Shown piece after piece: positions 220 through 19,647 of a stretch of 20,025 nucleotides of DNA. The position numbers and the translations under genes were made by a program. How positions within the stretch are numbered: the stretch's first letter is position 1; the number at the start of each line of letters is the position of its first letter. The notes beneath the pieces were generated by a model, which ran no database searches, was not told the origin of the DNA, and saw only the letters and a program-made list of their open reading frames with translations. This DNA is from a virus: the IMG/VR virus record IMGVR_UViG_3300048918_000531, positions 1 through 20,025 of that record; one strand, written 5' to 3'.

Positions 220-244
220 AATCCATACCTAAATCCATACCAAT
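220..244 (+). repeat. Paired 12-bp-spaced repeats, proximal copy overlapping the integrase start
   Basis: AATCCATACC at 220-229 and 232-241; the trailing AAT runs into the ATG at 243. It is a 23/25 match to the copy at 24-48, 196 bp away. A protein bound here would cover the translation start and early transcript of the integrase, so self-repression by the integrase is plausible (inference). Confidence 0.6.
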
Positions 245-1664
245 GGCCACAATCAGATTTTATCTTAAGCCCTTAAGCAACGGTACCGCTCAGATCATCG
301 CTGCCTTCCAATCCGGTTCAGAGCAACCAACCAAGTACACTGGCTATACTATTCCCAGCACCAAATCAGGCAAGGGCGAGTACAAACACTGGAACAAGAA
401 AAAGCAGCGTGTGGTATCACTAGAAGATAAGGGAGACGAGATCAATAAGAAACTGAGCAATTGGAGTACATCCTTCGATACGTATATCACTGATTGTAAC
501 CTGAATGGAGAGGCACCGGACGTGCACTACATCATGTCCAAGCTCGATGGCGTCTATAAGTCAAAAGCAAAAAATAACAAAGGCAAAGGCCCTACCCTCC
601 TATCCGTCGTCGCTGCTTTCCGTGAGTCTATCAAGCTCACCCACGAGGTCCCTACACGCAAGGCATATGCTACCCTGGAGACGCAGCTGCAAGAGTTCGA
701 AAAACACACAGGCAAAACATACTACGTTACCGACATTGGAGCTGAGTTCTATAAAGAGTTTTCAATATACCTAATCGAAGAAGAAACCAACTTCAACGCC
801 GTTATCGTAAAGAAACAGGGCCGCATAGGTACCATTCTCGACTGGTCTATAGAATCACTTGGCGTCAAAGACCTTAAGGCTGATTATCGGAAGATATATA
901 AGCTCAAAACAATCAAGGCCCCTAAGTTCCCGCTGCTCGATGCTGAGCTCACTGCGCTATGGTATAATAACACCGATGAAGCCTTTGCTACCCTTATCGC
1001 TGACCATGCGGAGGCTCTGGCCAACTGGGAAGCGAATAGGAACAGCAAGGTACCACACCACATATACCTGGCTAAAACACGACTTGGAAAGACAGAAAAG
1101 CAGCTGTTGCATCAACGGGTGCTCGATGGCTTCCTGCTATGCTGTGAAACAGGCATGCGTTACTCCGACCTATCACAGCTCAAACCATTACACCTCCAGT
1201 CATATGTATCAGAACATGACGGAATTGTACGGTATATCGATTTCGCTGCCAGCGTTAAGGCCGATAAGGCCAATAGTATCCCGTTGTCCGATCGTGCATG
1301 CATCATCATTGATCGATACCTCCCCTTCGCCGATACACCCGAAAAACAGCTGTTCAAATATTCTGCATCACAGGCTTTCAACGATATGCTCAAAGGCATA
1401 TTCGAAGATAAAGAGCTGTCACGTGCTTGCGAGATAGTTACTATGCAAGGGCCAACGGCAGAACGTTCCGTAGAACCCCTGTACCAGGTAGTAAGCATAC
1501 ACATGGCCAGGAACACGTACATAACAAGGCTGCTCAATGCTGGGCTTGCACCGGTACACGTCCGAGACAACGCTGGCCACAGCAAGATCGAGATAACCAT
1601 GGGGTACTTCCGGGGCCGAGACCATGTAAGGTTCGAAGAGACGCTGCGAATACTCAACAAATAA
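243..1664 (+). CDS. int: Tyrosine recombinase / phage integrase
   Basis: 473 aa. Site-specific recombinase for integration and excision of the element. The C-terminal catalytic domain shows the expected residues in order: Arg306 in ETGMRYSDL, a Lys in the 339-342 beta-hairpin region, the HxxR box at His420-Arg423 (HMAR), His446 in AGHS, and the nucleophile Tyr455 in MGYF. Residues 1 to about 110 would be the arm-binding domain and about 115-215 the SAM-like core-binding domain, as in Bacteroidota phage and conjugative-element integrases. The ATG at 243 directly abuts the repeat pair at 220-244; no clear Shine-Dalgarno is seen, which is normal in this phylum. It faces the late genes and is separated from them by about 50 bp, so it marks one end of the element. 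The family call is firm; which element type it serves rests on the neighbouring head genes. Confidence 0.95.
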   Translation: MATIRFYLKPLSNGTAQIIAAFQSGSEQPTKYTGYTIPSTKSGKGEYKHWNKKKQRVVSLEDKGDEINKKLSNWSTSFDTYITDCNLNGEAPDVHYIMSKLDGVYKSKAKNNKGKGPTLLSVVAAFRESIKLTHEVPTRKAYATLETQLQEFEKHTGKTYYVTDIGAEFYKEFSIYLIEEETNFNAVIVKKQGRIGTILDWSIESLGVKDLKADYRKIYKLKTIKAPKFPLLDAELTALWYNNTDEAFATLIADHAEALANWEANRNSKVPHHIYLAKTRLGKTEKQLLHQRVLDGFLLCCETGMRYSDLSQLKPLHLQSYVSEHDGIVRYIDFAASVKADKANSIPLSDRACIIIDRYLPFADTPEKQLFKYSASQAFNDMLKGIFEDKELSRACEIVTMQGPTAERSVEPLYQVVSIHMARNTYITRLLNAGLAPVHVRDNAGHSKIEITMGYFRGRDHVRFEETLRILNK

Positions 1665-9795: not shown

Positions 9796-10872
9796 TTAGC
9801 TGCCTACCACTTTCGCAGTATACATGCGGTCTATCTTTATAGGCGCAGCCAGTGGAGAGCTTTCCGTGTAGAACCTGTGATATTTCTTCTCAGGGTTAGC
9901 GTAGTTGCTCAGTATGTACTTGCCTGTCACCAGCGAGCTTGTTTGCGGTGGTATCGCTATCTGTGGGCACGCTGCATGTATCATCTCACCTATGTTCTCG
10001 CCACCGAGCATATAGATTTGCGTATCGTCCAGGTATTGCACCAGTTCGCCTGTTGTTGGGTCCTCATAGTAGTCATCGTATGTCCACATACGCACTATGC
10101 AGGTATCACAGTCAAGGTCACCATGGTACGATGCACCGGTAGCCTTCTTCTGAGATTGGAAGATGTTATCACGCTTCACGGTCACCAGCTTCCAGCGCTC
10201 CTTCATTTCCGTATTGGCCATGATCGCTGCAAACGCCTTCTTACCAAAGATCACATCGATGTAATCGCCGCCATACTTACCTTCCGTGCGCAGGAACGCC
10301 TGGCCAGTGGTAAATGTCGTAATAGGATTTACGCCTGCTTGATCCCAGTAGTATCCTGCGGTAAGGTCCACCATGCTATCAGCCTTGCGCTTGAAGTCAA
10401 GGATATCACCGTTACGGAGTGATTTCGATGTGCCGGTTTTCAGGATGCTCGCACACATGATGTTCTTCGAACGCTCGATCATGTCACGCACCTTCTTGTT
10501 CTCCTTGTCAATGGAGGTTGCCAGGTCGTCAAGGTCGTTCTCCGCAAAGGCTTTGCTACCGAATACCCTGAAGTAGGCCTGCAGCGTAGTTGCATCGAAG
10601 TATTCGTTGTAGTAATACGGGTCCCAGGCCTTTTGTGTAAACTTAGTGGTCTCGTTGCGGTTACCCTGGTGACCATGGATCACGTCAATGGCTACCTTTT
10701 CAGTACCGCGCTCTATCTCTACGATAGGATAACGGACCTTCGTAAGGTTGTCCTTGAAGAACGACTGCAGGAAGGTATTTACCTGTATCTCCTGATTGTC
10801 CGAGAACCTCGCGACAACCTGGGCTGTAAGCAGCGGACTAGCCTGCGAAACTGGTATTGAAGTACCTGACAT
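9796..10872 (-). CDS. Major capsid protein, lambda gpE-like
   Basis: 358 aa, close to lambda gpE (341). Forms the icosahedral shell with an HK97-type fold. Features: N-terminal helix region with VNTFLQSFFKD, an acid-basic strand with IERGTEKVAIDVIHGHQGN, a long helix (DLDDLATSIDKENKKVRDMIERSK), the central domain (GGDYIDVIFGKKAFAAIM, with the F-G-alternating pattern of gpE), a WTYDDYYEDPTTGE loop, and the C-terminal strand ending IKIDRMYTAKVV. It sits downstream of the decoration gene and the protease-scaffold gene, the lambda order. The start at 10872 follows an A/T-rich leader without Shine-Dalgarno. A strong terminator follows. Family call is confident from overall pattern and gene order. 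Confidence 0.85.
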   Translation of the reverse strand: MSGTSIPVSQASPLLTAQVVARFSDNQEIQVNTFLQSFFKDNLTKVRYPIVEIERGTEKVAIDVIHGHQGNRNETTKFTQKAWDPYYYNEYFDATTLQAYFRVFGSKAFAENDLDDLATSIDKENKKVRDMIERSKNIMCASILKTGTSKSLRNGDILDFKRKADSMVDLTAGYYWDQAGVNPITTFTTGQAFLRTEGKYGGDYIDVIFGKKAFAAIMANTEMKERWKLVTVKRDNIFQSQKKATGASYHGDLDCDTCIVRMWTYDDYYEDPTTGELVQYLDDTQIYMLGGENIGEMIHAACPQIAIPPQTSSLVTGKYILSNYANPEKKYHRFYTESSPLAAPIKIDRMYTAKVVGS

Positions 10873-11406: not shown

Positions 11407-11766
11407 TTATGCTTTCAGGCCGTTACGCTCCATCATAGCCTTCATGTTTGCTTCCAGGCTCTTCTGTTCGTCGGTCTTCTCTTCAGCTTCTGTTGTCGCT
11501 TCTTCCAGCTCCATAGAGCTAGCGCTATCATTCTCTACGTCGGCAAGCTTCGACTTTGCCAGTGCCTTTTTGCTCAGGTCGGCCATTTCGGTAGCGTTAA
11601 ACTCTTTGCCCTCTTCTATGGCCTTTTGCACATATTCAGGATCTGCTGAGCTCCATGGCTGCCATGCTTTTACACGCGCCCTTTCCTTCTCTACACCTGC
11701 AGTTTCTGCTGCCTTATATATGTCCGGATGCTGTGCTTTCAGCTCCTCGAGTGTAATACCTTCCAT
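11407..11766 (-). other. Possible internal start giving a separate scaffold protein
   Basis: An in-frame ATG at 11764-11766 (Met343, MEGITLEEL) begins exactly where the protease part ends and the charged helical part starts; the protein would be 119 aa. The preceding mRNA is A/T-rich (AAAAAACGATACT before the ATG), as is common before Bacteroidota starts. In lambda the Nu3 scaffold is made in this way from gene C. Inferred by analogy. Confidence 0.4.
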
Positions 11767-12792
11767 AGTATCGTTTTTTGAAGTATTAATATTTTCGTTT
11801 GCGGCAGGTGTTGTAGGCACGTAAGTCGACATCAGCGATGTGGTACCTTTCTTACCCTTCTGCTCAACAGCGTTTTTTATCACACCGTTAAAGCTGCTTA
11901 CACCATCTATCAGGCCGTGTTGCTGTGCCTGGGAGGCTGTATAGGTTTTGCCCGTTAGCACATTCTCTTTCTTGCTTAGCTTGCTGCCCCTGTTCTCTTT
12001 TACTGTGTTCAGGAAAACATCGTTCAGTGGGTCCAGCATCTCCTTCACCAGTGCATCTCCGTTGCCCTTCCTTGCATCGTTGAAAGACTTGTTTTTGTCC
12101 TTCGATGCCGTAGCATAGAATTCACGCTGCACAATACCATTCATCTCATAGTAGCCACTGTAATCGGCAAATGAGCACATGGTACCTATTGAGCCTATCA
12201 CGTCGGTCTTAGAAGTAGCTACCAGCTCATCAAACGATGAACCTATCCAGTAGCCTGCACTGCAACAGAGGTTGTCTATACAGCCTATGGTGCGTTTGTC
12301 GCTTCCCTTTATCGCCTGGGCAAATGCCTCGGTACCATCTACAGTGCCACCTGGCGTATCTAGCAGGCCTACTATCGTGTGTACACTGGCCGTGTTATTG
12401 GCAAGGTCCACCATCTGGCGCAGCGTCCCGGTACCAAACCATCCACAGAAATCCGCTTTCATCAAGGGCCCGCTGATGGGTATCATCACGATCTCAGCAC
12501 CATCAAACCCTTGGAAGTCGGCCATCTGCCGGTAGTTCTCCGGGCACATCACCACTTTATCACTTGCAAAGAGCTTCGAAAAAATGTTCAGGGTCGGCGC
12601 TGTTGCCTCTCCTTCTTCCTCTTCCATCATGGTGGCGCCGCCGCCCATGATAGTCTGCTGTTTACCAGCAGCATAATCCCACTTTATCAGTCCGGCCTTA
12701 GCCTTCTCCCAAAAGTCCAGCAACGCCATCGCAGCATTAGGCTCCATGAGCCAGTGCTGCCGGTATATGCTGAGTGCTACTTTCAGGTCCAT
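11407..12792 (-). CDS. Head maturation protease (S49/ClpP-like, gpC-type) with scaffold-like C terminus
   Basis: 461 aa. Processes head proteins during procapsid assembly. Residues about 100-290 form an S49 serine-protease core: VMIPISGPL near 102-110, GLLDTPGG (142-149), the nucleophile Ser178 in CCSAGYWIGSS, IGSIGTMC (199-206), and a lysine-rich stretch TASKDKNKS (227-236) that should supply the catalytic Lys (K231 or K233). Residues 343-461 are highly charged helical sequence (LEELKAQHPDIYKAAE, MELEEATTEAEEK, LEANMKAMMERNGLKA), as in a scaffold. This is the lambda C/Nu3 arrangement. The N-terminal 60 residues contain an unusual Gly/Met/Glu-rich segment (IMGGGATMMEEEEGE). Length resembles lambda gpC (439). 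Family call confident. Confidence 0.85.
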   Translation of the reverse strand: MDLKVALSIYRQHWLMEPNAAMALLDFWEKAKAGLIKWDYAAGKQQTIMGGGATMMEEEEGEATAPTLNIFSKLFASDKVVMCPENYRQMADFQGFDGAEIVMIPISGPLMKADFCGWFGTGTLRQMVDLANNTASVHTIVGLLDTPGGTVDGTEAFAQAIKGSDKRTIGCIDNLCCSAGYWIGSSFDELVATSKTDVIGSIGTMCSFADYSGYYEMNGIVQREFYATASKDKNKSFNDARKGNGDALVKEMLDPLNDVFLNTVKENRGSKLSKKENVLTGKTYTASQAQQHGLIDGVSSFNGVIKNAVEQKGKKGTTSLMSTYVPTTPAANENINTSKNDTMEGITLEELKAQHPDIYKAAETAGVEKERARVKAWQPWSSADPEYVQKAIEEGKEFNATEMADLSKKALAKSKLADVENDSASSMELEEATTEAEEKTDEQKSLEANMKAMMERNGLKA

Positions 12793-13379: not shown

Positions 13380-13420
13380 GTTATGCTTGAATAGGATGTA
13401 ATATTACTTATGTGCATAAC
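13380..13420. promoter_or_regulatory. Gap between divergent genes with dyads
   Basis: Between the secreted-protein gene and the ribbon-helix-helix gene lie GTTATGC (13380-13386) with GCATAAC (13414-13420), and the palindrome GTAATATTAC (13398-13407). No clean TAnnTTTG box is seen for the leftward head operon, yet the portal terminator means a leftward start is needed about here. An activator-dependent late promoter would fit (inference). Confidence 0.3.
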
Positions 13421-13425
13421 CATGT

Positions 13426-13459
13426 GGGAAATTTTTCCACTAAAATGGAAAAATTTCCC
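13426..13459. promoter_or_regulatory. Perfect 14-bp inverted repeat, probable operator
   Basis: GGGAAATTTTTCCA (13426-13439) and its exact complement TGGAAAAATTTCCC (13446-13459) flank CTAAAA. Each arm is itself a dyad, GGAAA-n2-TTTCC, and the two dyads start 20 bp apart, about two helix turns, so two dimers could bind the same DNA face. It ends 11 bp before the -7-like box of the rightward gene. Confidence 0.7.
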
Positions 13460-13470
13460 TTCCCTTATAT

Positions 13471-13478
13471 TTACTTTG
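13471..13478 (+). promoter_or_regulatory. -7-like element for the ribbon-helix-helix operon
   Basis: TTACTTTG matches TAnnTTTG at seven of eight positions, 20 bases before the ATG at 13499. No TTG is evident 19 bases upstream; the inverted repeat occupies that space, so a bound protein would block or replace the -33 contact. Confidence 0.45.
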
Positions 13479-13498
13479 CGGTAGCTAATCCAATCCAT

Positions 13499-13699
13499 AT
13501 GGGCAATCGCGTAGAAGTGCGCATCACCGATATTCCTACTGAATACCACGATGACATAGCGAGTATATCTCGTTATTACGGAGTGCCCCTAAAAAAGCTC
13601 ATTGGATCAGAGCTGCTACGCGTGATATTGGATTACGTTAAGTCACAACCGGAGCACATCAGGCAGTTTGATCGTCCACAAAAAAAGAGACCGTTATGA
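13499..13699 (+). CDS. Small ribbon-helix-helix-like DNA-binding protein
   Basis: 66 aa from the ATG at 13499. An in-frame ATG at 13412 would start before the operator and promoter, so it is rejected. The pattern is strand-helix-helix: RVEVRITDIP with alternating residues (beta ribbon), TEYHDDIASISRYYG (helix A), then PLKKLIGSELLRVILDYVKSQ (helix B) and a basic tail (FDRPQKKRPL). This is the plan of Arc/MetJ-type dimeric repressors, which recognise short dyads. A double dyad lies directly upstream, so autoregulation is likely. The stop overlaps the next ATG (ATGA), making a four-gene rightward operon. The fold call comes from pattern only. Confidence 0.55.
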   Translation: MGNRVEVRITDIPTEYHDDIASISRYYGVPLKKLIGSELLRVILDYVKSQPEHIRQFDRPQKKRPL

Positions 13700-13887
13700 C
13701 CAGAGAAGAAGCTTACCAGGCCATGCAAGATGGCAAGAAAGTAACCCACCGTTACTTCAGCTCAGATGAGTTCTACCAGATGAAGGGACCTCGCATTATA
13801 GCGGAGGATGGCGTAGATCACACCCCGATATTCTGGGATGAAAGCCAGAACAACTGGCGCAAAGATGGATGGGAAATTAAAAGCTAA
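13696..13887 (+). CDS. Small phage/plasmid accessory protein
   Basis: 63 aa. MTREEAYQAMQDGKKVTHRYFSSDEF followed by an aromatic, acidic region with IFWDESQNNWRKDGWEI. The pattern 'EA...M..GKKVTHRYFS..E' with a C-terminal 'W..DGWEI' is common, from memory, among small uncharacterised proteins of phages and mobile elements in Bacteroidota. The ATG overlaps the preceding TGA. No function known. Confidence 0.55.
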   Translation: MTREEAYQAMQDGKKVTHRYFSSDEFYQMKGPRIIAEDGVDHTPIFWDESQNNWRKDGWEIKS

Positions 13888-13903
13888 CATCAAACCACAG
13901 AAA

Positions 13904-14149
13904 ATGAAAAAGATAAGCATCGTCCGCTTCATGGGCTGGCAGGTCATCCCCATAAAGCGTTACGCCGACTCAATTCCGGAAGAGCATCTGGAAGAGACAG
14001 ACCACTGCAACAATGTTGTGGTGAAAAAAGGCGCATCCATAGGTCCCACGACTACTATCGACTTCTCTACAAAATCCTACCTTTATCTCCGCAACTATAA
14101 CCAGAACATCGGCACCTATCGTAAACAGATGATGGCTTGCTTAAAGTAA
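13904..14149 (+). CDS. Hypothetical small protein
   Basis: 81 aa from the ATG at 13904, which follows an A-rich leader and starts 16 bp after the previous stop; an upstream in-frame ATG at 13838 would overlap the previous gene and adds a basic segment of little conservation value. The sequence opens MKKISIVRFMGWQVIPIKRY, then HLEETDHCNNVVVKKG and ends NIGTYRKQMMACLK. No motif recognised. It is the third gene of the rightward operon behind the ribbon-helix-helix gene. Confidence 0.45.
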   Translation: MKKISIVRFMGWQVIPIKRYADSIPEEHLEETDHCNNVVVKKGASIGPTTTIDFSTKSYLYLRNYNQNIGTYRKQMMACLK

Positions 14150-14541
14150 ATGCTATAGAACAAAAAGAAGGATACTTTTGGTGTAAGGTCAAAGTTGACA
14201 ATGCCGTGGAGTGGATTCCGAAGTATGTTAAGGGAGGTGTAGTACTCATGAATAAGTATGAGCAACTGCTGGATATCAACGAAAACCGCATCCCCACACC
14301 GGATGAAACTATTCCATTTTCGCCTGCCGAAGTATGGAATAGAGCTATCGAGGCCTATAAAGCAAGCCTGATAAGTACCGCTGATACGCTCAACTACCAT
14401 GAGTATATCCATGAAGACAGCATAAGTCGCTACATCAATCTGAGTTATGAGGAGCGGAAAGATGCCAAACATTTGGACGTGGATGCCTTATTAGAAAAGG
14501 GGTATGTGGAAAATCCATATGAAATTCCCGTAAAAGAATAG
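14137..14541 (+). CDS. Hypothetical protein, last gene of the rightward operon
   Basis: 134 aa if it starts at TTG 14137, overlapping the previous gene by 13 bp; alternatively 97 aa from the ATG at 14248, which has GGGAGG about 12 bases upstream, an uncommonly good Shine-Dalgarno for this phylum. The first 37 residues (EGYFWCKVKVDNAVEWIPKY) read like genuine coding sequence, so the longer form may be real or may be a remnant of another small gene fused in frame. The rest is acidic with helices (PAEVWNRAIEAYKASL, YHEYIHEDSISRYINLSYEER). No family recognised. It ends 9 bp from the convergent next gene, with no terminator seen. Confidence 0.45.
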   Translation: MLKVNAIEQKEGYFWCKVKVDNAVEWIPKYVKGGVVLMNKYEQLLDINENRIPTPDETIPFSPAEVWNRAIEAYKASLISTADTLNYHEYIHEDSISRYINLSYEERKDAKHLDVDALLEKGYVENPYEIPVKE

Positions 14542-14550
14542 CTGTAACTC

Positions 14551-14832
14551 CTACCCCTCATCTCGCTCAGCCTGCTCAGCCAAATCCAATATAGCATCAA
14601 CATCATCCTGGTTCAATATACCCAACTCAACAAAAGCCTTCCAACCATCACAATACCGCACTACGGACCCATGATAGTAATCATTAACAACCACTTGCAG
14701 ACCCGCCCCACCACCACCGGGAGGGCAATGCACCTCCACATGAACAACCCCATGTACCGGGTCGGTATAAGTCACATCTATATAAGTTTTAGCTGGTAGA
14801 GGCATGTTACTATCGCTAACAACGAGCGACAT
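14551..14832 (-). CDS. Hypothetical protein with Gly-rich loop
   Basis: 93 aa. A beta N-terminal half (KTYIDVTYTDPVHGVVHVEVHC) leads into PPGGGGAGLQVVVND, then a helical C terminus (DGWKAFVELGILNQDDVDAILDLAEQAERDEG). No motif of known function. It diverges from the gene at 14890 with an inverted repeat between them, so the two may be co-regulated. Confidence 0.45.
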   Translation of the reverse strand: MSLVVSDSNMPLPAKTYIDVTYTDPVHGVVHVEVHCPPGGGGAGLQVVVNDYYHGSVVRYCDGWKAFVELGILNQDDVDAILDLAEQAERDEG

Positions 14833-14863
14833 TCAATATACGGCTTCAATTAGAAAGGCTACA

Positions 14864-14889
14864 AATGCAATATATCTTATATTTGCATT
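14864..14889. promoter_or_regulatory. Inverted repeat framing a -7 box in a divergent promoter
   Basis: AATGCAA (14864-14870) and TTGCATT (14883-14889) are exact complements 12 bp apart. Within the right arm is TATATTTG (14878-14885), a full match to TAnnTTTG for the rightward gene, whose ATG at 14890 is only 4 bases later. On the other strand TGCATTTG is a near match for the leftward gene. No TTG was found at the proper distance. Confidence 0.5.
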
Positions 14890-15147
14890 ATGGAAACAGC
14901 ATTGCAAACCGCTACATTCACTATCAATTACGACGGTACCGATCATCGCATCACTGCCGTGCCGCAGCTCACCCACGGCGAAATCTGGTACAGCATCACA
15001 GTGCGCACACCCGAGAATACGCATACGTTCGGCATGCACCATCACCCCGACACACTGCGGTTTCACATCCGTCAATCACTCATGGCCACCAACTACGAAG
15101 AAATAGAAGAGAAAATATCAGATAAGCTAATAGCGGTTGAAGCCTAA
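14890..15147 (+). CDS. Hypothetical small protein, probably leaderless
   Basis: 85 aa. METALQTATFTINYDGTDHR, then an antiparallel beta-like middle (EIWYSITVRTPENTHTFGMHHHPDTLRFHI) and a helical end (NYEEIEEKISDKLIAVEA). No recognised family. The -7 box ends 4 bases before the ATG, so the transcript probably starts at or next to the start codon. Its stop overlaps the stop of the convergent SRAP gene by 4 bp. Confidence 0.5.
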   Translation: METALQTATFTINYDGTDHRITAVPQLTHGEIWYSITVRTPENTHTFGMHHHPDTLRFHIRQSLMATNYEEIEEKISDKLIAVEA

Positions 15148-15836
15148 AACAGGTTTCTCGGCTCGGCTGGTGCCTCCGGCTTCTTCTTTGCCAGCGGACT
15201 CACAGGCAACAGCGTTTTCTCCAGCGGCACCTGGCTTACATGTATAAAGCGCTTCAGCTCCTCCACAGTCGCACTCGGGTCCAGCCACGCATCCCATTCA
15301 CTGCGCTCCAGCATAAACAACTGCCGCTGCGCATCTTTAGGCCTCACTTGCTGCATAAACTCATTTGCATCAGTCGTCGCCAGGCTCAGGCACCGGTAAG
15401 GCTGGCCATCATACAAACCCCAATCCTTCCATATACCCGCCGCCACTATTAAGTCCCCATGCGGATGATAGATGTAGTAAGGCTTCTTAGGTGGCACCTT
15501 CACCTTTGATCCCTCCACCGGAGTCCATTCATAAAACCCCTTCAGGAACACCAGGCACCGCCGCTCGCGCGCACTCTCGCCAAACAGCCTGCTTTCAAAC
15601 ATCGTCTCGCTCTTACAGTTCAGCGTAGTCATCCTCGGGTCCAGCACACCACCCGGTATGGTAAAGTTCCACCGCCACGGCTGCACCTTATCCCGCTCCG
15701 TATTCAGCATCACCGGCAGCTCAGGCCCGTTAAACCCATTCGCAAACTCCAACTCCGGAAACGGCACCACCGTCACTCCATTTCCCACAAAAGCCCTCTG
15801 CTCCGCCTGCGTTGGCGACTTAGTATGATAGCACAT
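15144..15836 (-). CDS. SRAP/HMCES (YedK)-family protein, conserved His apparently lost
   Basis: 230 aa. The family binds abasic sites in single-stranded DNA and forms a covalent thiazolidine link through Cys2 exposed after Met removal. Seen here: Cys2 (MCYHTKSP), the Asn motif as LNCKSETMF (Asn73), the Glu motif as LKGFYEWT (Glu103), PYYIYHPHGDL and the VAAGIWKDW strand, all in family order. Where the family has the active His followed by RRP or RMP (in E. coli YedK, VDIHDRRPLVL), this protein reads QQVRPKDAQRQLFML: Arg165 stands at the His position. In YedK/HMCES that His assists chemistry and reversal of the crosslink, so activity may be altered. A Lys/Pro/Glu tail follows. Often found in prophages; a role in protecting replicating DNA is inferred. 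Confidence 0.85.
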   Translation of the reverse strand: MCYHTKSPTQAEQRAFVGNGVTVVPFPELEFANGFNGPELPVMLNTERDKVQPWRWNFTIPGGVLDPRMTTLNCKSETMFESRLFGESARERRCLVFLKGFYEWTPVEGSKVKVPPKKPYYIYHPHGDLIVAAGIWKDWGLYDGQPYRCLSLATTDANEFMQQVRPKDAQRQLFMLERSEWDAWLDPSATVEELKRFIHVSQVPLEKTLLPVSPLAKKKPEAPAEPRNLF

Positions 15837-15846
15837 AGATATTACT

Positions 15847-15860
15847 GATAACTCGTTATC
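15847..15860. promoter_or_regulatory. 14-bp dyad in the SRAP leader
   Basis: GATAAC-TC-GTTATC, a perfect 6-2-6 inverted repeat, lies 11 bp before the SRAP start. On the leftward strand TAACTTTA just upstream (rc of 15862-15869) is one base off TAnnTTTG, so the dyad would sit at the transcription start: a plausible operator. Confidence 0.4.
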
Positions 15861-15896
15861 TTAAAGTTAACGAACTTGGCCTGAACTTTGTGTTAA

Positions 15897-15938
15897 AATA
15901 AAAAAGCGGAGCGCTGAGTGTCAGTCAGCGCATCCGCT
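15897..15938 (-). terminator. Intrinsic terminator of the leftward Cys-rich mini-gene unit
   Basis: AGCGGA-GCGCTGA (15905-15917) pairs with TCAGCGC-a-TCCGCT (15925-15938): 13 pairs and one bulged base at 15932. The A-run before it gives a U-tract on the leftward RNA. It ends transcription about 60 bp before the SRAP start, insulating that gene. Confidence 0.75.
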
Positions 15939-15976
15939 AGCAGGGAGTTAGCAGGCTCCCCACAGAGTTGCAGGAT

Positions 15977-16129
15977 TTAATCCTGCCTTGGGCAATCACA
16001 AATTCTGACTGCGACAGCCCGTTTGGGAGGAATCGGATATACCTTTTCCCCGTTTTTACCCCTGCGCCAGGCACGGGGTATGTAGCGGTAGCAACTACCG
16101 CAGCTAGGACATTGGTTTATGGCGTCCAT
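15977..16129 (-). CDS. Cys-rich mini-protein, possible zinc ribbon
   Basis: 50 aa from the ATG at 16129. Cys7, Cys10 and Cys13 lie in CPSCGSCYRYIPRAW, and Cys44 and Cys46 in VRICDCPRQD; between them is a basic stretch (WRRGKNGEK, PIPPKRA). Two Cys clusters separated by about 30 residues with many Arg/Lys suggest a small zinc-binding, perhaps nucleic-acid-binding, protein. An in-frame stop lies just upstream, so the start is well bounded. It sits in a leftward unit with a -7 box at 16322-16329 and a strong terminator at 15897-15938. The stop lies within a perfect 8-bp hairpin (15970-15986). Not recognised as a named family. Confidence 0.5.
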   Translation of the reverse strand: MDAINQCPSCGSCYRYIPRAWRRGKNGEKVYPIPPKRAVAVRICDCPRQD

Positions 16130-16316
16130 ATGCGTTATTTTCTGCGATTATAGGGATGCAGCGATACCCATTGGCTGAATGCCAACATCTTAATTAACGT
16201 CGTGTGGAAAAAGTATCGAGGAGGGAATAGAAGGGATTAATACCTTCGCATTGAGTTTTCCACCCCAATACTTTTTCTTTCTAATTATGCCCCTTTTGGT
16301 CGAGGGGCATAATCAT
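16130..16316 (-). ncRNA. Structured leader of the Cys-rich mini-gene, with possible leader peptide
   Basis: The predicted RNA starts near 16316 and opens with an 11-bp hairpin (16284-16294 with 16303-16313). An 11-codon ORF (MIMPLDQKGHN) begins at 16316 and spans that hairpin. Further on, the segment 16204-16215 can pair either with TTTTCCAC (16256-16263) or with ATACTTTTTC (16268-16277), two mutually exclusive helices. Smaller hairpins follow (GAAGG/CCTTC; TTGGC/GCCAA at 16171-16185). This suggests a regulatory leader; no known riboswitch class is recognised. Confidence 0.4.
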
Positions 16317-16321
16317 TTCAG

Positions 16322-16329
16322 CAAATTTA
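16322..16329 (-). promoter_or_regulatory. -7 box of the leftward Cys-rich unit
   Basis: TAAATTTG on the minus strand, a full match to TAnnTTTG. No TTG at the usual distance (TTC instead). The start expected about 5 bases on coincides with the 5' end of the hairpin and with the ATG at 16316. Confidence 0.45.
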
Positions 16330-16554
16330 TCCAATAATAGTTGCGGCTTGAAAAAGAAGAATTAACAGCCATGTGGATAACTTTTGTAATACAAGCCAGT
16401 CAACCAAATAACTAATTATGACAATATAAAAAAGTGGTGCAAAATGCAGGCTGTTAAAGCATTTGAGGTATTTTGAGGGCATGAAAAAACCCCAATCGCT
16501 GCTAAACAATTGAGGTAATTTTTTTGCCATGCTCACGGAAACGATGCCCCGCAT
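16327..16554 (-). CDS. Doubtful small membrane protein
   Basis: 75 codons from ATG 16554, with inner starts at 16530 (MAKKLPQLF) and 16482. The second half has two hydrophobic segments (FAPLFYIVIISYLVDWLVL and STWLLILLFQAATIIG). A consensus promoter lies just upstream, which supports it. Against it, a terminator-like hairpin (16484-16515) lies inside the first third, and a different reading of the same RNA gives a 20-codon ORF (16564-16502, MAPYAGHRFREHG) that stops in the hairpin loop. Either a real two-span protein whose RNA is attenuated, or chance. No homologue recognised. Confidence 0.25.
   Translation of the reverse strand: MRGIVSVSMAKKLPQLFSSDWGFFMPSKYLKCFNSLHFAPLFYIVIISYLVDWLVLQKLSTWLLILLFQAATIIG
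16484..16526. terminator. Bidirectional terminator-like hairpin
   Basis: CCCCAAT (16490-16496) pairs with ATTGAGG (16509-16515); on the leftward strand the one mismatch becomes a T-G pair and the stem is followed by TTTTTT (rc of 16484-16489). On the rightward strand AATTTTTTT follows (16518-16526). It lies about 55-80 bases downstream of a consensus leftward promoter. Confidence 0.5.
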
Positions 16555-16603
16555 ATGGCGCCATAGACCGGCACAAAACTAAACACTTTTCCACATTTTC
16601 CAA
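16554..16603 (-). promoter_or_regulatory. Consensus leftward promoter with palindrome at its start
   Basis: On the minus strand TTG (rc of 16601-16603), exactly 19 bases, then TAGTTTTG (rc of 16574-16581) match the Bacteroidota consensus fully. The 12-bp perfect palindrome TATGGCGCCATA at 16554-16565 lies just downstream of the expected start site (about 16569), where a repressor would block early elongation. Confidence 0.6.
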
Positions 16604-16665
16604 CTTTTTAGCAGCAAAAGCACCTGTATATCAGGTAAATCCCCTATTGCTTGCATGATCTTCTC

Positions 16666-16800
16666 TCAGATACCAATAACGCCCAGTAGTTTCAATACAG
16701 CAATGATCACCACCACTACCACACCCACGATCAGGCGCACCTTTATATCCTGGAGCATGTAATCACTCCTGTCCCATGCCCATTTTGGTTTTTTCCGCAT
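16666..16800 (-). CDS. Mini membrane protein, 44 aa, probably leaderless
   Basis: 44 aa. A basic, Trp-rich start (MRKKPKWAWDRSDYMLQD) leads into one long hydrophobic span (VRLIVGVVVVVIIAVLKLLG) to the C terminus; N-in topology by the positive-inside rule. A promoter-like pair lies directly upstream with its -7 box ending 6 bases before the ATG. No family known; single-span mini-proteins of this kind in prophages include superinfection-exclusion and holin-like peptides, but nothing here decides. Confidence 0.5.
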   Translation of the reverse strand: MRKKPKWAWDRSDYMLQDIKVRLIVGVVVVVIIAVLKLLGVIGI

Positions 16801-16805
16801 CGTAG

Positions 16806-16836
16806 CAAATATATCAGTATCACATACTTATGGCAA
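16806..16836 (-). promoter_or_regulatory. Promoter of the 44-aa mini membrane protein
   Basis: On the minus strand TTG (rc of 16834-16836), 20 bases, TATATTTG (rc of 16806-16813). The expected start falls at or within a base or two of the ATG at 16800. Confidence 0.5.
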
Positions 16837-16851
16837 ACAATATGCCGAAAT

Positions 16852-16955
16852 AAAAAGGCTACCCGTAGGTAGCCCTCTAATTATTCGCTCTCAGTCTCTT
16901 CCTCGGTATTATCACTCTCCTCCGCACACCTTTATCCTCCTTATCGTTGTCATAT
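16852..16955 (-). pseudogene. Remnant of a portal gene 3' end with its terminator
   Basis: Positions 16852-16937 align with 17807-17893, the true portal end. On the minus strand this copy reads EEETESE-stop (portal: EEETEKE-stop) and, in another frame, NDKEDKG (portal: GNKDKGEP), so the reading frame is broken. The terminator hairpin GGCTACC-CGTA-GGTAGCC (16857-16874) with a following U-tract is identical to the one behind the portal. Confidence 0.7.
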
Positions 16956-17016
16956 CATTCAAGGAATTTAACATTTTACGGCGGGTTATGGTGCAAAATT
17001 TACATTATAACCTAAC

Positions 17017-17256
17017 ATGAAAGATCAGCAGCCATCAACTCGGAACGAGATATTGAAGCAAATTTATAACGCCATTGCCTTACTTGGTGGCAAAGATGAT
17101 ATTCTCGAAATGATATGCGCCTGGGCCTCTGGAAGTGTATCTGAAGAAGAAGTGCTACAACAGCTAAAAAATTGGAACGTGGCTAAAATCGATGAAATAA
17201 AAAACCGCCTGGATAGAACATCCAAGCGGTCAGTAAATGTCACGAACTTCAACTAG
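17017..17256 (+). CDS. Hypothetical small helical protein
   Basis: 79 aa. Helical and acidic-basic in turn: NEILKQIYNAIALLGGKDD, ILEMICAWASGSVSEEEVLQ, then LKNWNVAKIDEIKNRLDRTS. It looks like a small helical bundle; no motif recognised. No clear TAnnTTTG box; a GGTTAT/ATAACC dyad (16984-16989, 17007-17012) lies just upstream. Its final codons also encode the terminator of the opposing gene, and the two stop codons overlap by 4 bp. It belongs to a cassette bracketed by the two portal-end copies. Confidence 0.5.
   Translation: MKDQQPSTRNEILKQIYNAIALLGGKDDILEMICAWASGSVSEEEVLQQLKNWNVAKIDEIKNRLDRTSKRSVNVTNFN
17199..17230 (-). terminator. Terminator of the HNH-like gene, embedded in the opposing gene
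   Basis: On the minus strand ACCGCTTGGAT (rc of 17220-17230), a 5-base loop, and ATCCAGGCGGT (rc of 17204-17214) pair over 11 bp including one T-G pair, followed by TTTTTT. It begins 23 bp after the stop of the leftward gene and lies wholly inside the rightward ORF. On the plus strand the stem has a C-A mismatch and no U-tract, so it is directional. Confidence 0.75.
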
Positions 17257-17543
17257 TAGCCACAGGTATTGCCTCTATTTGCAGGGACAAAGGAAACAGC
17301 ATCAGATATCTCCAGCTTCCCAGTGGCTTGGTTATGCCCATTGCATAAGGGTACTATATACCAGTTGTTATCAAATAGATTGTCTCTTTGAACGTGAGCC
17401 CCTACCAGATCCGTGTTAGTGCATGATCTTTCGCTGCAATACCTTGGCTTTGGCTGGCGGCTATATCTTTCCCAGTGGTTTAACCATGAACCACATTTAC
17501 ATGAGTACGAAGAAGTACCATTAATGTTTTTTACTGTTGCCAT
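17253..17543 (-). CDS. Small Cys/His zinc protein, HNH/treble-clef-like
   Basis: 96 aa. Cys15 and Cys17 (YSCKCGSWLNHW), Cys36 and Cys41 (RYCSERSCTNTD), then LVGAHVQR (His50) and WYIVPLCNGHNQ (Cys67, His70, Asn71). The order Cys pairs, 'VGAHV', 'YIVPLC..HN' is that of a small HNH-like treble-clef protein widespread in bacteria and, from memory, uncharacterised. His50 and the HN pair would be the nuclease-type residues; whether it cuts DNA is not known. No upstream consensus promoter was found. Its own strong terminator (17199-17230) supports it as a real gene. It shares the cassette with the convergent 79-aa gene. Confidence 0.65.
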   Translation of the reverse strand: MATVKNINGTSSYSCKCGSWLNHWERYSRQPKPRYCSERSCTNTDLVGAHVQRDNLFDNNWYIVPLCNGHNQATGKLEISDAVSFVPANRGNTCGY

Positions 17544-17621
17544 TTTAGATTTTTTTAGGCAGTTAAAAAATCAAAACAGGCCCCAAAGAACGAATTATCA
17601 AAACAAAGATGTCACTAAAAG

Positions 17622-17651
17622 TTGCAAAGCCCGAAAGTAATGTTACCTTTG
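17622..17651 (+). promoter_or_regulatory. Perfect Bacteroidota-type promoter without a following gene
   Basis: TTG at 17622-17624, exactly 19 bases, TACCTTTG at 17644-17651. It fits the consensus at every fixed position. The start is expected near 17656. Confidence 0.7.
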
Positions 17652-17655
17652 CAGT

Positions 17656-17719
17656 ACGAAATTTTTAATCCATCATTTCATTTGATAAAGCTCCATTCGC
17701 AGTGGGGCTTTATTGTTTT
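17656..17719 (+). ncRNA. Candidate small RNA of about 60 nt
   Basis: Between the consensus promoter and an intrinsic terminator there is no ORF with a usable start. The terminator stem is ATAAAGCTCC (17685-17694) with GGGGCTTTAT (17704-17713), one G-T pair, 9-base loop, then TGTTTTG. The unpaired stretch before it is A/U-rich (AATTTTTAATCCATCATTTC), available for base-pairing. Function unknown. Confidence 0.5.
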
Positions 17720-17806
17720 GTATCGTTACAAAGATATGACTATTACATAGTAACATCGAAAACAAATTATAAACAGTGTGTGTATAATAACAACTGATTA
17801 ACCAAC

Positions 17807-17893
17807 AAAAAGGCTACCCGTAGGTAGCCCTCTTACTATTCTTTTTCAGTCTCTTCCTCGATGTCATCTGTCTTATCCGGCTCACCTTTATCC
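17807..17893 (-). repeat. Portal 3' end with terminator, intact copy of the duplicated segment
   Basis: The terminator GGCTACC-CGTA-GGTAGCC (17812-17829) with a minus-strand U-tract from 17807-17811, plus the last codons of the portal gene. The second, broken copy is at 16852-16937. It ends the transcript of the portal gene just before the accessory cassette. Confidence 0.8.
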
Positions 17894-19647
17894 TTGTTAC
17901 CTCCTGTCTCCTGCCCGGTAACTCCCGGCTTCAGCATTGGCGCTGGTTCTATCCCACATTCTTTTGCGGTCTTCTTCTCACGCTGTATCTGCCTGAAGAT
18001 TGGGATAATATCACCCTGCCCCCCTTCCTTCGCAGCAGCTTCCATGCTCATCAGCGGGTAGCCATCAAACTCTGGCCCTAGCATTTCCCGCAGGTACTTC
18101 GCTGTCTTCAGCGGATCTATGTCCGGGAACTTATCGCCATCCCAGCTGGCATACATGTAGGCTTCCGTAGCCATGTAGTTTTTCTGCCCCAGCGCTTCCA
18201 GGTATCCCGGCGCCATTATCTTCCCATTCAGTATCCACACATACATCTGCAGCTCGTATATAGGCTTCAGGAACTGCTCGGTAAATTCTCCACGCTTCTT
18301 CATGAAGGTATGTTCCCAGTCCTTCCCGGCCATACGGCTGGCGCTAAAGCTATCGTTATACTGCCCCATGGCCACGTCCGGTGGTATCCCTACCGCTGCG
18401 CATATCAGGTTGAAGTGGAAGGTAGAGAACTCTGCAAATTCCAGCTCCTGCTTACTTTCCATTGCCTTTATCGTCACATCGTTCGGCAGGTTAAACACTT
18501 GCTTCTCCGTGCTGACTGCTACCTCGCTGGCCACCTCGTTAGCATCAGCATCCACAGGAATATCATTCAGCTCGTCGCTAAATCCCGCGCTGGCCAGCGC
18601 AGTCCTTGTCGCGCCCATCGGGTTCTCTTGGTTGCTTTTCACCCCATGCTCAAAGAAGTAAGCTATCTTCTGCCGCTCTTCGGCACCACCCAGGGCCGCG
18701 CTGCCGTAGCGCTCCAGCTTCTTCGCGGTTTGCATCACCACAGATATCAGTGGGTCGCAGCGGGTCGCACCCACCTCCGGGTTATCTCTGTAGGTCATAT
18801 ACGCCATGCGCATCCCCGATCGGGCACCATACGCTGGTATTCGTTCCCACTTATAACTCGCCGTGCGCACATGGTAGGCCACATGGCTGCCTTTGGCGTC
18901 TATTTCCACGCCCCTGCGCACCCTGTTACCATTGGGCAGGTACAGATCGTAGCCACTGGTATCCGCGCCTTGTACCAGGCCGTCATTTTGTTTTACCGAT
19001 GCATCTGGCGGATCACATACCAACGCGCCGTTGATCAGCTCTGTTTTCACCCAGTTGCCTTCCACGCGCAGTACTACCAGCGTATCGCCGCCCAGCAGTA
19101 TGTCGCGCAGGCACGTACCGGCATGCGCATGCAGGCTGCGCTGCCCGCTATAGTCTGATTTCTTGCTGGCGCTATATACCTTCCACTTGCTCTCGGCCTT
19201 CTCATTAAATTCTTCCGAGTTTATGTTGATGCCCTCATCCTTCAGCACCTCTGTTTGGGGTTCGCTCTGCAGGCTCAGCTCGGTACCTATCACCCACATG
19301 ATGTACTTGTTGATGATGATAAAGCAGGGCTCACTCTCGCGGTACAACTGCCAGCTACGCGCCCGCAGCGCATAGTAGTCCATCGTATATTCTTTGATCG
19401 GGCCCATCCCGCCCAGGGTCTTCTCCCCATCAAACACAGCATACACCGTCGGACTGTTCCGGTACACCCCGCCGGCCATAAACGAGGCCTTGGGCAACGC
19501 ACGCTTTTTATCTATAGCCACCCCACCTTCAGCAGGCACCACCACCAGCTCCTTGTTTTTTTGCTCTTGTTGCACCTCCATTGCCGCCTCTGCTGCTGTG
19601 TCGACACCCGAAATATTCTTTCTCCTAAAACGGTCATACCATGCCAT
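17836..19647 (-). CDS. Phage portal protein, lambda gpB-like
   Basis: 603 aa (lambda gpB is 533). Forms the dodecameric channel at one capsid vertex for DNA entry and exit. Seen: the start MAWYDRFRR, an early YYALRARSWQLYRESEP helix, DILLGGDTLVVLRVEG, the RIPAYGARSGMRMAYMTYRDNPEVGATRCDPLI stretch (residues about 270-300) that follows the family's 'R.GQ.RGVP.L' region, AVGIPPDVAMGQYNDSFSASRMAGKDWEHTF (the 'YSS.R' clip/stem motif as YNDSFSASR), and the C-terminal acidic low-complexity tail (NKDKGEPDKTDDIEEETEKE). Upstream a small gene and a truncated gene; downstream its own terminator and then the accessory island rather than the protease gene that normally follows. Family call confident. Confidence 0.9.
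   Translation of the reverse strand: MAWYDRFRRKNISGVDTAAEAAMEVQQEQKNKELVVVPAEGGVAIDKKRALPKASFMAGGVYRNSPTVYAVFDGEKTLGGMGPIKEYTMDYYALRARSWQLYRESEPCFIIINKYIMWVIGTELSLQSEPQTEVLKDEGININSEEFNEKAESKWKVYSASKKSDYSGQRSLHAHAGTCLRDILLGGDTLVVLRVEGNWVKTELINGALVCDPPDASVKQNDGLVQGADTSGYDLYLPNGNRVRRGVEIDAKGSHVAYHVRTASYKWERIPAYGARSGMRMAYMTYRDNPEVGATRCDPLISVVMQTAKKLERYGSAALGGAEERQKIAYFFEHGVKSNQENPMGATRTALASAGFSDELNDIPVDADANEVASEVAVSTEKQVFNLPNDVTIKAMESKQELEFAEFSTFHFNLICAAVGIPPDVAMGQYNDSFSASRMAGKDWEHTFMKKRGEFTEQFLKPIYELQMYVWILNGKIMAPGYLEALGQKNYMATEAYMYASWDGDKFPDIDPLKTAKYLREMLGPEFDGYPLMSMEAAAKEGGQGDIIPIFRQIQREKKTAKECGIEPAPMLKPGVTGQETGGNKDKGEPDKTDDIEEETEKE

Follow-up and report, generated by a model that had tools for sequence, protein, structure and literature searches.

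A divergent phage SRAP-domain protein with arginine at the position of the conserved active-site histidine

Introduction

Proteins of the SRAP family cross-link themselves to abasic DNA. The self-reversal of these cross-links is under active study, and it is driven by two residues, one of which is His160. In YedK of E. coli, Glu105 and His160 open the sugar ring, while for formation of the Schiff base Glu105 alone matters (PMC9436759). Cross-linking was approximately 10-fold slower in the YedK mutants H160A and H160Q and 3-fold slower in H160E, and reversal by H160Q was severely slowed (PMC9436759). This C-terminal His has been called absolutely conserved (PMC3765255).

The SRAP protein described here, P0001, is encoded in a 20,025-base virus record of IMG/VR, which is referred to as the window. 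P0001 shares with YedK (PDB 6NUA, 6KBS, and 2ICU) the SRAP domain and the Met1-Cys2 start, and Asn75, Glu105, Thr149, and Arg162 of YedK correspond to Asn73, Glu103, Thr154, and Arg171, respectively. In contrast, His160, Arg77, and Arg4 of YedK are replaced by Arg165, Lys75, and His4, and Trp67, Gly62, Ala76, and Pro164 are also changed. The SRAP domain of human HMCES (PDB 6OE7 and 5KO9), which has the conserved His (H210), matched P0001 over the Asn/Glu core (phmmer E-value of 4e-8), whereas the eukaryotic partner motifs of HMCES were absent from P0001. The SRAP with PDB code 2f20, a chromosomal protein of Bacteroides thetaiotaomicron, is likewise of the Bacteroidota MC[YF]H type, keeps Cys2, Asn, and Glu, and has a residue other than His at the His160 position. 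This residue is Asp rather than Arg, and 2f20 is otherwise conventional, with RMP and Trp67 kept.

YoqW of SPbeta and the SRAPs of L163 and L170 are phage-encoded like P0001, but they keep the His. The latter two adjoin umuD-umuC-like genes, in agreement with a previous report (PMC3765255), whereas P0001 had no SOS or translesion neighbour in the window. In L163 (5681-9515, plus strand) and L170 (5681-9527, plus strand), a 138-aa UmuD-sized protein, a UmuC-like protein (assigned by inspection), and a 163-aa protein were followed by the His-containing SRAP and then by a methyltransferase-like gene.

Results

The window contained integrase, endolysin, capsid, decoration, S49 protease, and portal genes. 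The features relevant to the SRAP gene are listed below, with the integrase, capsid, protease, and portal genes given as context.

243-1664, plus strand: tyrosine integrase, indicating a temperate phage
9796-10872, minus strand: major capsid protein
11407-12792, minus strand: S49-type head maturation protease
13412-17803: accessory island holding the SRAP gene, between the portal and head-protease genes
15144-15836, minus strand: SRAP (YedK/HMCES-like) protein P0001, 230 aa, with Cys2, Asn73, Glu103, and Arg171 kept and Arg165 at the His160 position
15342-15344, minus strand: codon 165, AGG (Arg), at the catalytic His position, with a spacing of 7 from Asn158
15847-15860: perfect palindrome GATAAC-NN-GTTATC, 10 nt upstream of the SRAP start codon
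17836-19647, minus strand: portal protein

Among named phages, the portal and capsid proteins were most similar to those of Flavobacterium phages, for example FL-1 and FCV-1, and the window is thus most likely a fragment of a temperate Bacteroidota siphovirus. The portal protein, used as a prophage query, gave no match in 395 Bacteroidota genomes. At the place of the island, a relative with a 53% identical portal protein (L232) carried one small antisense gene. Neither umuDC, imuAB-dnaE2, lexA, nor dinB was present among the scanned neighbours in the 20 kb window, the record being a fragment. Neither the SRAP gene nor any of its tested neighbours matched a defence family in PADLOC, and searches for RNA families and tRNAs found none. 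The palindrome upstream of the SRAP gene was the sole exact copy in the window, while four copies were found with up to two mismatches against 0.6 expected; it is possibly an operator.

Further features in and next to the island were also noted. The 3' end of the portal gene was duplicated together with a terminator-like hairpin (16849-16943 and 17804-17899, approximately 955 nt apart). The copy comprised 76 nt with 83% identity and a 20-nt extension. Between the two copies lies a small two-ORF insert, and the arrangement resembles the scar that an inserted cassette would leave. A 63-aa protein of PHROG 3474 (13696-13887, plus strand; 4e-22) had relatives with 47-49% identity in numerous large phages of enterobacteria. 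Over its full length it also matched the Pfam Tad2-like family (Thoeris anti-defence 2), but weakly and below the cut-off (E-value of 0.035), so that the island may have a counter-defence role. A 96-aa Cys/His-rich protein (17253-17543, minus strand) contained a GAHV...WYIVPLCNGHN stretch resembling a small HNH domain, and had no significant family match.

The ORF of P0001 starts with ATG followed by TGC as codon 2, and the N-terminus reads MCYHTKSPTQ. The protein matched Pfam PF02586 (SRAP) with an E-value of 4.2e-31 and 108.6 bits, above the curated cut-off of 27.1, and PHROG 1599 at 1.7e-28. The top match among solved structures in the phmmer search was 2f20 (E-value of 1e-16); human HMCES and E. 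coli YedK came next. The alignment confirmed Cys2, Asn73, and Glu103, which the initial annotation had reported as kept, and the Met-Cys start and Arg171 were present as well. By these sequence features, P0001 is a divergent SRAP-domain protein, and its gene is an accessory gene of what is most likely a temperate Bacteroidota siphophage.

The segment around residue 165 reads ANEFMQQVRPKDAQRQLFML, in which Arg165 is the equivalent of YedK His160. An alignment of 301 SRAPs was made from viral contigs, GTDB genomes, and phage and plasmid records, with YedK and 2f20 included. The His160 column held His in 296 of them, and the five other rows were P0001 (Arg), 2f20 (Asp), L005 (Asn), L077 (Asn), and one truncated sequence. 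Of the 76 aligned SRAPs from viral contigs, 75 had His and one was truncated. The 45-sequence alignment A3 was invariant at M1, C2, N73, E103, and R171, with His as the consensus at residue 165. The spacing of 7 between Asn158 (YedK N153) and residue 165 was the same in 292 of the 301 SRAPs; the alignment thus needs no gap here, and the residue is not misaligned. As the codon AGG differs from CAY (His) at all three bases, it does not represent a single-base sequencing error.

The replacement of the conserved His by Arg, claimed from the initial inspection of the sequence, was therefore correct: the His is truly absent in P0001, and the active-site variant is real and rare. Homologues did not show such a residue to be ordinary, as approximately 98% of the relatives have His. 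The accompanying claim that the RRP/RMP motif had gone was right for Met-Pro, now Gln-Leu, and wrong for the Arg, since YedK Arg162 is retained as Arg171. The C-terminal His by which the SRAP family has been described is thus represented in P0001 by Arg165. As 2f20, which PMC3765255 lists as a structure of the family, has Asp at this position, the His marks the canonical active site and not the domain.

In the other proteins without this His, the surroundings differed. The Asp of 2f20 was accompanied by intact Cys2, Asn, and Glu, and the nearest relatives of 2f20 among those fetched have His. Asn occupies the position both in L005, from a phage fragment of human faeces, and in L077, from a Bacteroidetes MAG. 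L005 additionally carries N75I and E105G, and L077 carries R77A and lacks the Met-Cys start. The L005 gene (1804-2487, plus strand), devoid of the equivalents of Asn75, Glu105, and His160, likely encodes a catalytically dead phage SRAP, judging from these residues. On the tree, the four His-less proteins corresponded to four changes, and a single clade was not rejected by the AU test (p of 0.22). Independent losses of the His are favoured over a clade trait but not proven. Loss of the His thus occurs both with the remaining core intact (2f20 and P0001) and alongside general decay (L005 and L077).

P0001, a lone and fast-evolving lineage, was placed within the Bacteroidota MC[YF]x clade of SRAPs with an SH-aLRT of 99. 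Its end branch was the longest in the tree, with 2.43 changes per site against a median of 0.65, and the identity to its closest relatives did not exceed about 34-37%. No close homologue was found in IMG/VR, 84,980 GTDB genomes, 50,697 phage records, and 72,556 plasmid records. Scans with its own peptides yielded no match in 2.9 million viral contigs and no relative in the 84,980 genomes. Without a relative above 34-37% identity, Arg165 cannot be called conserved. An Arg-type clade was also sought, and no second SRAP with Arg was present in the searched viral, GTDB, phage, and plasmid sets. As a general observation, SRAPs fell into the MCGR type, with two residues between His160 and Arg162, and the mostly Bacteroidota MC[YF]x type, mostly with five. 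Arg4 was present in 160 of 160 MCGR SRAPs and was variable in the MC[YF]x SRAPs.

In the alignment, 35 columns reached a weighted conservation of at least 80%. P0001 departed from the family at 10 of them, against a median of 2, which ranked it fourth among the 301 rows. The changed columns, in YedK numbering with the consensus first, were G62N, L63F, W67G, A76C, K84S, I147L, H160R, M163Q, P164L, and I166M, and W67G came with a shortened loop. As several highly conserved residues were changed along with the His, Arg165 is not a lone swap. The loop between the His and Arg positions has six residues in P0001, mostly five in the Bacteroidota MC[YF]x clade, and two in YedK. Lys75, in place of YedK Arg77, is shared with 32 of the 136 clade members. 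The changes G62N, W67G, A76C, M163Q, and P164L, all at near-universal residues, may make the pocket of P0001 or its binding to DNA weaker.

Discussion

With Cys2, Asn, and Glu present but no His, slow cross-linking and even slower release would be expected from the behaviour of the YedK mutants, which were H160A, H160Q, and H160E, Arg not being among them. We tentatively favour P0001 as a slow, poorly reversible abasic-site cross-linker, a reading to which we give slightly less than an even chance. After removal of Met1, Cys2 would attack the aldehyde of an abasic site in ssDNA with Glu103 as the acid/base, and the product would be a thiazolidine DNA-protein cross-link. Without His160, ring opening would be spontaneous or assisted by Arg, so that formation of the cross-link may be ten-fold or more slower, and reversal slower still. 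P0001 would then cap abasic ssDNA almost irreversibly, while the phage replicates or in the course of the host DNA-damage response. P0001 probably still binds abasic DNA, and the DNA-side Arg (YedK R162) is kept as R171. All five A3 invariants, with Cys2, Asn73, Glu103, and Arg171 among them, are retained even though the branch of P0001 is very long, which suggests that the cross-linking core is under selection. By contrast, L005 and L077 have lost core residues as well as the His. On the other hand, the further changes at near-universal residues count against this reading, as does the pKa of Arg, which is higher than would suit a general acid. The initial annotation had offered either a slow or irreversible cross-link or a conversion to a binder or inhibitor; the former agrees with the analogy to the YedK mutants, while the latter found no direct support.

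The main alternative, which is unlikely though it deserves serious weight, is a relaxed or decayed SRAP, that is, a recently acquired accessory gene losing its function, or a binder of abasic sites or ssDNA without efficient chemistry. The longest end branch and the high rank in altered conserved columns are in line with this, and both Asn-type His-less relatives, L005 and L077, look decayed. Third-position G in the SRAP gene was 0.57, compared with 0.18-0.41 in the other genes of the window, an excess suggesting a separate or foreign origin. However, the 230-aa frame is open, and the start, Cys2, Asn73, Glu103, and Arg171 are all intact, which would not be expected under random decay.

It is a minor possibility that P0001 performs ordinary SRAP chemistry, with the acid role moved, for example, to His4, to His124 or His126, or to Arg165 itself. 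Three of the proteins without the His have an intact N-terminus (P0001, 2f20, and L005), and all of them carry His4, compared with 36 of the 136 members of the MC[YF]x clade. Two of these three are, however, close kin on the tree, the clade has varied residues at position 4 (H, T, Y, S, D, N, or F), and His4 nearly always coexists with a normal His160, so that there is no clear swap. A relocation of His160 to His4 therefore appeared unsupported in the alignment, and His124 and His126 lie in poorly conserved columns. An error of sequencing or assembly, or a misalignment hiding a true His, has a nearly negligible probability: although P0001 comes from one metagenomic virus record with no second copy, AGG is three base changes away from CAT or CAC, the flanking spacing is normal, the frame is open, and adjacent conserved residues are altered too.

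There is a slim chance that P0001 makes an effectively one-way cross-link with which the phage caps abasic DNA, arising for example from host glycosylase defences, and never releases it. Brig1 is such a defence, a host glycosylase making abasic sites in phage DNA, and deletion of host YedK made no difference to it (PMC11078745). That a phage SRAP acts against a glycosylase defence is speculation.

P0001 and 2f20 show that the His described as absolutely conserved is not so. A mechanistic consequence of Arg165 is plausible by analogy with the YedK mutants, and natural His-free SRAPs that retain Cys, Asn, and Glu, such as P0001 and 2f20, are test cases for the role of the His.
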